This document shows positions 40,805 through 42,952 of a stretch of DNA of 64,000 nucleotides, piece by piece; the first letter of the stretch is position 1; each line of letters opens with the position of its first letter. This stretch comes from Sulfuricurvum sp. (GTDB taxonomy: Bacteria > Campylobacterota > Campylobacteria > Campylobacterales > Sulfurimonadaceae). The notes below the pieces were generated by a model. The model saw only the letters and a list, made by a program, of their open reading frames with translations, did not search any database and was not told the DNA's origin. Both the position numbers and the translations under genes were made by a program. The stretch lies in assembly GCA_030694265.1 (NCBI GenBank), contig JAUXYP010000006.1, forward strand, positions 186,001-250,000, read 5' to 3'.

Positions 40805-41044
40805 TTATCTGTGTTTTTCTATTTTTTTGTAATTTGTTGGCAAAATTGACCATTTTAGAGCACTTTTTGTCTTTTTAATGGATGAGCAGTCATTTAAAAA
40901 GTATTTCATTGACTCTTTAATGTGCAGTATCCAATAGCAATGGTATTGAGACAAAGACCATTTTAGGGGTGAAAATCGTGTTGAGGAGATGGATAAAAAA
41001 ACATCTTCTAAGCCATCGCGTTCTTGCTCACTTAAAATGCTCAT
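40805..41044 (-). CDS. Small uncharacterised protein coupled to HTH gene
   Basis: I do not recognise this 79-residue protein. It begins MSILSEQERDGLEDVFLSI and has a basic, aromatic-rich C-terminal half with several Lys, Trp and Tyr. Its ATG overlaps the stop of the upstream HTH gene by 4 nt (ATGA), which argues that it is real and made together with it. Confidence 0.6.
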   Translation of the reverse strand: MSILSEQERDGLEDVFLSISSTRFSPLKWSLSQYHCYWILHIKESMKYFLNDCSSIKKTKSALKWSILPTNYKKIEKHR

Positions 41045-41286
41045 GTTAGTTTTCCTAATTTATTAATTTTTCGTATCACTCTGATGATTTCATCGTCATC
41101 GAGCATGGCGAGCATTTCAAGAACAGCTTTAGCCGCTTGCGGTTTTGCATTTCCTAATCTCCAATCTTGATAGGTTCGCATAGAAATATCCAACTTTTCA
41201 GACATCGTTTTTTGGGAAATCTTTTTGCCATTGTTTTGTGCCTCAACGGCATTATGTAGAAGATTAAAAATATCATTGATTTCCAT
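41041..41286 (-). CDS. Small helix-turn-helix regulator
   Basis: This 81-residue protein has an XRE-like helix-turn-helix at about residues 22-48 (ISQKTMSEKLDISMRTYQDWRLG). It is predicted to be a DNA-binding regulator. The partner gene downstream overlaps by 4 nt. The start is 6 nt from a TAGAAT -10-like hexamer with no room for a normal leader. Its targets are unknown. The upstream region to 41468 holds promoters but no other known gene. Confidence 0.75.
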   Translation of the reverse strand: MEINDIFNLLHNAVEAQNNGKKISQKTMSEKLDISMRTYQDWRLGNAKPQAAKAVLEMLAMLDDDEIIRVIRKINKLGKLT

Positions 41287-41422: not shown

Positions 41423-41533
41423 ATGGTGAGTGAAAAAAAAGGTGGGGATGTAGAAGCCTTGTTAAAGGCTAAAGAAGATCAGTATAGTCGTATTTTGACA
41501 AATCGACGTAAAATATTCCCTCTCGTTGGATAA
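41423..41533 (+). CDS. Possible 36-residue protein antisense to a gene end
   Basis: A short frame starting MVSEKKGGDVEALLKAKEDQ runs 36 codons to TAA. A TATAAT lies 7 nt upstream, and no ribosome-binding site is seen. Its last 65 nt are antisense to the 3' end of the HTH/coiled-coil gene. It could be a small protein, the spurious product of an antisense RNA, or the remnant of a larger gene. Confidence 0.3.
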   Translation: MVSEKKGGDVEALLKAKEDQYSRILTNRRKIFPLVG

Positions 41534-42137
41534 TACGGACATCACTGCCAAAACGCTCTGTAAAACGGTGACGTACCAGTTTGCGTTCTTCACTTCCTAT
41601 GCCTATGAATTTTAAATAGCGTTTCAATTCAATAATCCCTTTTGGTTCAATAGAGATAGTACTGGATTGTGCTACATCGACGTCATGTACCGTATTGGTA
41701 TTGTTAGAGAGCATTAATTTACTACTGAGCACTTCTAAAATATTTTTGAGCTGCTCATCTTTGGCCATGTATATTTCTTCAATTCGTACACGCTCGGCTA
41801 TCAACATCTCCTCTTTGTCGTTTGTCAATTGGTCTATTTTTGCTTCAAGTTCTTTGATCTTGAGTTTGAGATGGTGATTTTCTTTTTGATAAAGGGAAAT
41901 GACCATCCCAACGCTTGTTTTAGGAGATGCAGTTACTGGGACAGTTGCAGTTACTGTTTGTTTCGAGGAATCGTGTATTTCTCGTTGCTTTTCTTCATCA
42001 AGTGAACTGCGGGGAACTATGATATAGGTTACCCCCGATTCAATAATATAATTGAGTCGTTTGGTCCGAATCTTATTTTGTATCATTTCTTTAGACATTT
42101 TAAATGTTTTTGCGTATTCATCAATACTAAATCGCAC
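41469..42137 (-). CDS. HTH-like and coiled-coil protein coupled to a cyclase
   Basis: The 222-residue protein has an N-terminal domain resembling excisionase or MerR-type HTH (SIDEYAKTFKMSKEMIQNKI), a Ser/Thr/Val linker, a long coiled coil (about 83-140, ENHHLKLKIKELEAKI), and a basic C-terminal domain that ends FYVDLSKYDYTDLL. It may match a Campylobacterota-specific uncharacterised family such as DUF3972, which I cannot verify. It overlaps the cyclase-like gene by 11 nt, so the two are translationally coupled. Confidence 0.65.
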   Translation of the reverse strand: MRFSIDEYAKTFKMSKEMIQNKIRTKRLNYIIESGVTYIIVPRSSLDEEKQREIHDSSKQTVTATVPVTASPKTSVGMVISLYQKENHHLKLKIKELEAKIDQLTNDKEEMLIAERVRIEEIYMAKDEQLKNILEVLSSKLMLSNNTNTVHDVDVAQSSTISIEPKGIIELKRYLKFIGIGSEERKLVRHRFTERFGSDVRIIQREGIFYVDLSKYDYTDLL

Positions 42138-42789
42138 GAATTCTCCTTTTTGGGGTTAACCAGTCTTGTTTTGGAGGAGGGATTATTCCTCCTTGACGCA
42201 TCCATATTAAATAACCGTTGCGTTTAATTTCATGTTTATCATGAAAGGTGTGCAGTGCGCTGTATCGAAATTCACATTTTTTTAAAAGAGCTGAAAAGTC
42301 GTCATGTTCATCCAAAAAGGTTTGCAATGAGTCGAAGGCTGAGGCCGAAATAAAAACGGTATCAGCTACTAAGTTTTTGATTTCGATATAGCGTGCACAC
42401 TCATTTAAACCATCACCTACAAAGTTATTATGTCCCAAAATATCTTCAAATCGGTGTACCTTTCCGGTATGAACGGCTACTCTTATACCCTGAAAATAGG
42501 GGTACTCTTTCGAAATAAAATCAGAAAAATGGATAAAAGAGAGACCAAGGATCGCTCCGAATCCTTTAAGATTTGGATGTAAGATACAATAAAAACCATC
42601 ACCTGTAGGGATAATACCTTGTAGCATTTTTTCCAAAGGTATGCCTGAATTTTCCAACATTTTTCGAATCATTTTTTTGTAACTTTGAGAAAGAAACGTA
42701 ATGAGTTCAAGCTGTTTGGACATTTCAAGGCGAGAAAAGTCGATGATATCAATCAAAACGATATCAGTCTCAATAGCTTGTTTATGCAT
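42127..42789 (-). CDS. Class III nucleotide cyclase-like protein
   Basis: The 220-residue protein resembles a stand-alone class III adenylate/guanylate cyclase catalytic domain. Metal-binding Asp candidates are D14 in LIDIIDFS and D64 in PTGDGFYC. N129 and R133 in GLNECARY match the catalytic Asn and Arg. The Lys that usually precedes the GDG motif and sets adenine specificity is absent (LQGIIPTGDG), so substrate choice is unclear. There is no membrane or sensor domain. It is coupled to the HTH/coiled-coil gene downstream. Confidence 0.7.
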   Translation of the reverse strand: MHKQAIETDIVLIDIIDFSRLEMSKQLELITFLSQSYKKMIRKMLENSGIPLEKMLQGIIPTGDGFYCILHPNLKGFGAILGLSFIHFSDFISKEYPYFQGIRVAVHTGKVHRFEDILGHNNFVGDGLNECARYIEIKNLVADTVFISASAFDSLQTFLDEHDDFSALLKKCEFRYSALHTFHDKHEIKRNGYLIWMRQGGIIPPPKQDWLTPKRRIRAI

Positions 42790-42952
42790 AATTTGGATAG
42801 TTTCCAGTTACTGAAATAGGTCATTCATTGTAGTCAAATTCACCTCTATAATCACTGAGATGGCGTGTTTAATATCGGCAAAAATAACAAAGTTGTAATC
42901 TAAATATGTTATTATGGACAAAAGTAAACATTATTAAATATAGGAAAAAAGT

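Follow-up and report, generated by a model that had tools for sequence, protein, structure and literature searches.

Does a small cyclase-like gene of the sulfur-oxidising bacterium Sulfuricurvum sp., the stop of which overlaps the start of a putative regulator gene, belong to a second-messenger pathway? The sequence-only reading of the window, which is the whole stretch of 64,000 nucleotides analysed here, had proposed that a stand-alone class III cyclase-like domain is coupled to an HTH/coiled-coil protein at this locus. The features on which the analysis was based, all of them on the minus strand, are as follows.

42127..42789 (-): cyclase-fold gene, 220 aa, predicted single-domain class III nucleotide-cyclase fold, ATG start, TAG stop
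41469..42137 (-): partner gene, 222 aa, GTG start; predicted winged HTH at about residues 1-50, coiled coil at 76-144, and small C-terminal beta-alpha-beta-beta domain at 174-212
42127..42137 (-): overlap of the cyclase stop and the partner start, 11 nt
42143..42151 (-): AAAAAGGAG, putative ribosome-binding site of the partner within the cyclase gene, read from the sequence
42827..42860 (-): candidate promoter/operator of the pair, conserved TCTCAG...TAGA and TACAAT (-10-like), restricted to the genus
42748..42750 (-): codon of D14, first metal-binding Asp, assigned by alignments
42598..42600 (-): codon of D64 (in TGDG), second metal-binding Asp, assigned by alignments
42610..42612 (-): codon of I60, equivalent to the Lys position in an ungapped reading; all relatives have I or V here
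42424..42426 (-): codon of N122, an unvarying Asn at the second base-contact position
42403..42405 (-): codon of N129, catalytic Asn, assigned by alignments
42391..42393 (-): codon of R133, transition-state Arg, assigned by alignments

Both open reading frames were present, and the overlap claimed for them was borne out at 11 nt. The ribosome-binding site AAAAAGGAG was located directly 5' of the partner GTG, within the 3' end of the cyclase gene, and the same spacing of -11 between the two genes recurred in many Sulfuricurvum relatives. Both genes were under purifying selection in the pairs with estimable dS, with a dN/dS of 0.036-0.063 for the cyclase gene and of about 0.06-0.11 for the partner gene. 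The TCTCAG...TAGA element was not found 5' of the cyclase-partner pair in other genera, indicating that the family as a whole does not share it as an operator. In some members of the genus, an 11-bp indel (about one helical turn) separated this element from the TACAAT box.

Fold and active site of the cyclase-like protein

When the protein was searched as a single sequence, no credible family match was obtained in Pfam, NCBIfam, PADLOC, or PDB, and the PDB sequence searches gave chance matches only. Among 28 diverse relatives, PF00211 was matched by more members than any other family, namely by 7, all below the cut-off (best E 0.025), and the window protein itself had no such match. These sub-threshold matches are one of four lines of evidence for a class III cyclase, the others coming from a profile comparison and from a structure model. 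In a profile-profile comparison with 20 class III domains of the same phylum, an E-value of 9.3e-6 and a probability of 83% were obtained, and the alignment paired up D14, the GD motif, the HTG motif, and GDGLNECAR. As negative controls, the partner profile was compared with either cyclase profile, giving a probability of about 0%. The AF2 model, built from shallow alignments of 8 sequences, had a pLDDT of 64.5 and a pTM of 0.67. All of the top 50 Foldseek matches of this model were class III cyclases (best E 4.8e-6), and the best VIA-align match was soluble guanylate cyclase, with a Z of 14.5 and an rmsd of 3.2 over 171 residues. The beta-alpha-beta-beta-alpha-beta arrangement of the cyclase fold was thus recovered by AF2, Foldseek, VIA, and the profile comparison. 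As judged by structure prediction and profile-profile comparison, the product of 42127-42789 is a stand-alone protein with the class III nucleotide-cyclase fold, as had been claimed.

D14, D64, N129, and R133 were present as described earlier and were unchanged across an alignment of some 60 sequences with identities as low as about 50%. They were also kept in an orphan relative (G344, 45%) and in a distant one (G189, 28%). A conserved loss of N129, R133, or the metal Asp was looked for in the homologues and did not occur. Because the AF2 model is weak at residues 114-140 (pLDDT < 50), which include N129 and R133, these two residues were placed by sequence and not by geometry. That the transition-state residues are fully conserved speaks for catalysis. 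An attractive idea was that the invariant K185 of the DKH motif corresponds to the Lys of the VKG motif, which binds the triphosphate; as the two did not coincide in the combined alignment, we make no such claim.

The base-contact positions were different in character. ATP is selected by a Lys-Asp pair, and GTP by a Glu with a varied second residue (PMC4215837). The absence of the adenine-specifying Lys was confirmed, since neither a conserved Lys nor a conserved Glu was found at residues 55-63 in the family alignments in a gapped or an ungapped reading. Profile aligners put an insertion of 2-3 residues before TGDG instead of the ungapped reading that leads to I60. The second base-contact position is N122 in the family, whereas Thr occupies it in 19 of the 20 ordinary class III cyclases from the phylum. 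Consequently, the ATP-type base pair (Lys plus Asp/Thr) is lacking, with the Lys absent and N122 in place of Asp/Thr, and the Glu that would mark the GTP type at the Lys position is also lacking, with no conserved Glu at positions 56-62. These sequence comparisons indicate that the base pocket is diverged from both the ATP- and the GTP-selecting types; with the Lys lost and an Asn at the second position, the substrate is not readable from sequence.

A cyclase-like fold with lost base-contact residues could be a pseudo-enzyme, and this is the main rival to an active cyclase. According to this explanation, the protein would bind metal and NTP but cyclise the NTP inefficiently or not at all, and it would serve the partner as a switch or an allosteric subunit. 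It fits the observation that both base-contact positions are unlike those of ATP- and GTP-specific cyclases, the tight coupling of the two genes, and the lack of a usable CNBD-type cNMP receptor in the carrier genomes (see below). However, the Asp, Asp, Asn, and Arg residues are invariant in about 60 sequences, whereas loss of the Arg or Asn in some lineages would be expected of a protein that binds without catalysis; moreover, the gene decays by fragments and deletion (G119, G052, and G124), not by point loss at the active site. We therefore regard a pseudo-enzyme as rather unlikely, though it deserves serious weight.

Partner protein, neighbourhood and distribution

The description of the partner as an HTH/coiled-coil protein was supported by structure prediction, which gave an N-terminal HTH and a coiled coil. 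In the AF2 model, the N-terminus formed a helix-helix-hairpin with a pLDDT of about 87, and Foldseek with this domain returned the MerR/BldC winged HTH as weak matches (E about 0.1-0.3). HTH_17 was matched below the cut-off only. The score against DUF3972 was 15.7 bits, under the cut-off of 26.2, and this family was matched by 14 of 27 partner-family members at an E of 0.1 or better (best 5e-5). From these models, the partner is predicted to be a DNA-binding protein. A second winged HTH at the C-terminus was also considered and was not supported by a profile comparison of both ends.

The partner was adjacent to the cyclase, downstream, and on the same strand at all the intact Sulfurimonadaceae loci that were inspected and not interrupted by a contig end, with a spacing of -11 to +161 nt, several of these loci being repeat fetches of one genome. 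At the G344 locus (L113), no partner adjoined the cyclase. The flanks varied across genera, with pyk or fba upstream and a FapA_N-like gene or hth81 downstream, while the adjacency of cyclase and partner stayed.

The two families differed in their breadth. The partner family was matched in 147 of 151 Sulfurimonadaceae genomes when the paralogue was included, with a cyclase-type orthologue in roughly 140, and more distant relatives occurred through the phylum. The cyclase family was matched in 81 of the 151 genomes, at least 3 of these matches being fragments, and in 38 of 41 genomes within the genus. Loci without the cyclase kept their flanks, namely a cmoA-like gene with fba, or the cmoA-like gene alone, upstream and hth81 with HU downstream; at the G119 locus, a broken cyclase copy was retained. 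Since the partner is distributed more widely and often occurs alone, the pair is not an obligate two-component unit, and the partner looks like an older regulator to which the cyclase supplies an input that is optional.

These data also bear on an alternative in which the two genes are linked by a common operon within a stable housekeeping region (pyk or fba, cmoA-like, HU), the cyclase having no action on the partner. The conserved neighbourhood indeed extends past the pair, many genomes keep the partner without the cyclase between identical flanks, and one cyclase (L113) has no adjoining partner. Against this, the two genes remain adjacent across genera while other neighbours change, and in Sulfuricurvum they are coupled by the overlap and the ribosome-binding site. 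Such functional independence is, in our estimate, improbable.

Several other features of the neighbourhood were observed. Outside Sulfuricurvum, a 550-aa FapA_N (flagellar assembly protein A) protein often followed the partner (L038:4780-6447, L049:5496-7154, and others). A co-occurrence of the cyclase and the FapA_N-like gene was considered and dropped, as many cyclase-less genomes have the FapA_N-like gene beside the partner. In the window, two small genes at 40805-41286 (-), which separate the pair from the HU gene in an order kept across genera, encode an HTH protein of 81 aa that is weakly similar to SspB/DUF4007/RstR and a basic protein of 79 aa. In the same genome (L114:3681-5773, G000:C10), a paralogue of the partner adjoins proteins that by eye are HD-GYP-like and YajQ-like. 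Such proteins are tied to c-di-GMP in other bacteria.

In the phylum sample, the cyclase family was matched in 28 of 397 genomes, and the only 2 outside Sulfurimonadaceae were G344 (E 9e-50) and G189 (E 3e-7, TIR-associated). The family is thus essentially confined to Sulfurimonadaceae, where it occupies a stable chromosomal locus in about half of the sampled genomes. The family name follows our reading of the named relatives, the nearest of which to the window genome are Sulfuricurvum MAGs. No relatives were found in viral contigs by profile search or in plasmids or phages by tblastn; accordingly, the gene does not appear to be mobile cargo in those collections.

The sequence-only reading had also held that cyclic-nucleotide signalling is scarcely described in Campylobacterota. 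This view needs correction in that class III cyclases are not absent from the phylum: one over the Pfam cut-off was present in 46 of 298 genomes, and an earlier search of the phylum with PF00211 and PF01295 reported that 21% of species have cyclases, exclusively CHASE2-type ones (PMC9239204). Because the present family is unrecognised by Pfam, NCBIfam, and PADLOC, that survey could not have counted it. The new point is therefore the existence of a variant family of class III cyclases that is genuine but has been overlooked, lying outside the earlier cyclase searches of Campylobacterota.

Receptors in the carrier genomes and a possible mechanism

The genome of the window (2.15 Mb, 100% complete) contained no Pfam-detectable class III (PF00211) cyclase and no class I (PF01295) cyclase and encoded four CNBD proteins, the CRP type among them. 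The binding Arg was scored with a motif pattern fitted to E. coli CRP. The Arg of the phosphate-binding cassette was kept in none of these four proteins, and the cNMP-binding Arg was found in none of the 34 CNBD proteins of eight carrier genomes (the 4 above and 30 from seven others). In the search for CRP-like receptors proposed earlier, CRP-like proteins were thus found in the genome, but none has the cNMP-binding Arg.

The presence of CRP-type CNBD proteins in the window genome would suit a classical cAMP or cGMP pathway via such proteins. However, the ATP-selecting Lys is missing with no Glu in its place, and no CNBD of the eight carrier genomes has the binding Arg, which makes the classical cAMP-CRP pathway unlikely. 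An earlier conclusion that the CRP homologues of cyclase-less Campylobacterota are not cAMP-regulated (PMC9239204) agrees with these results. Overall, we consider a classical pathway very improbable.

The loss of both the base-selecting residues and the CNBD receptors argues for non-cAMP signalling, and a cyclase-effector pair, as had been suggested for this locus, is plausible as a hypothesis. Our preferred reading, to which we give tentative and somewhat less than even confidence, is that an NTP cyclase of non-canonical type is active as a homodimer and that its output acts on the regulator translated together with it. The upstream gene would give a small soluble class III cyclase, presumably active and homodimeric, which would turn an NTP into a cyclic mononucleotide, or at least bind and turn over NTP. 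Given that the two genes are coupled and that the eight carrier genomes lack CNBD receptors with the binding Arg, the signal would be read by the co-translated winged-HTH/coiled-coil partner and not by a CRP-like receptor, and it may adjust the DNA binding of the partner.

A more specific proposal, which we think unlikely, is that the product of this cyclase lineage is a cyclic nucleotide, neither cAMP nor cGMP, that is read by a CNBD-less winged-HTH/coiled-coil receptor. If true, Campylobacterota would have a receptor of a new type and, encoded in the core genome, a second-messenger route that is likewise new. To our knowledge, cyclic pyrimidine nucleotides in bacteria have so far been tied to phage defence alone; their housekeeping use, if true, would be new.

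Comparison with known systems

The window family shares with the PF00211 catalytic domain the fold, the order of the elements, the pair of metal Asp residues, and the catalytic Asn and Arg. It differs in falling below the Pfam threshold, in lacking the Lys, in having an Asn at the second base position, in having no sensor or transducer domain, and in a distinct C-terminal motif, FxDKH...WxR. The CHASE2-type adenylate cyclases of Campylobacterota have the superfamily and the phylum in common with it. They are, however, large sensor proteins in a four-gene cluster with a phosphodiesterase (PMC9239204) and Lys/Thr predominates at their base positions in the aligned set, whereas the window cyclase is a soluble single domain beside an HTH/coiled-coil gene. 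DUF2652 is another divergent cyclase-like family with other base residues (PMC4886424); it resembles the present one in being soluble and class III-like, in its conserved metal Asp, and in having been recognised by computation. Its base pair is Lys-Glu or Glu-Lys, and DUF2652 was absent among the Pfam matches of the window protein and 28 relatives.

Pycsar PycC likewise has a small soluble class III fold, a non-ATP pocket, and a two-gene unit, and its base-contact residues are different (PMC11224242). A Pycsar-type anti-phage system, in which a pyrimidine cyclase acts with an effector, would be consistent with the small two-gene unit, the non-purine-type pocket, and the Anabaena uridylate cyclase 8jsz among the fold matches. 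Nevertheless, PADLOC gave 0 matches for the window cyclase, although real PycC proteins of Campylobacterota (L107-L109, positive controls) scored 1e-32 to 1e-90 with the same library. Furthermore, no CNBD or TIR/TM effector adjoins the gene, its neighbour being the predicted winged-HTH/coiled-coil protein, for which Pfam gave no CNBD match, and the locus belongs to the stable core genome. We find this explanation scarcely credible.

The positive controls are genuine Pycsar pyrimidine cyclases of the Campylobacterota genomes G203, G400, and G151 (L107:3739-4464, L108:3766-4395, and L109:3824-4465), and a gene similar to them was found at L110:3420-4172. The genes of L108-L110 adjoin small hydrophobic, probably membrane, proteins, and those of L109 and L110 lie within restriction-system loci. 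In G189 (L112:2970-4720), a ThsB-type TIR gene is located directly 5' of the gene of a 384-aa cyclase-domain protein that has the IPTGDG, N-xx-G, and DKH signatures of the window family. PADLOC recognises only the TIR of this pair, which is possibly an undescribed TIR-cyclase defence pair.

Finally, the predicted N-terminal winged HTH and long coiled coil of the partner resemble those of MerR, BldC (HTH_17/MerR-like), and DUF3972; its matches to them are weak or below the cut-off, and it differs from them in having a C-terminal domain of its own.
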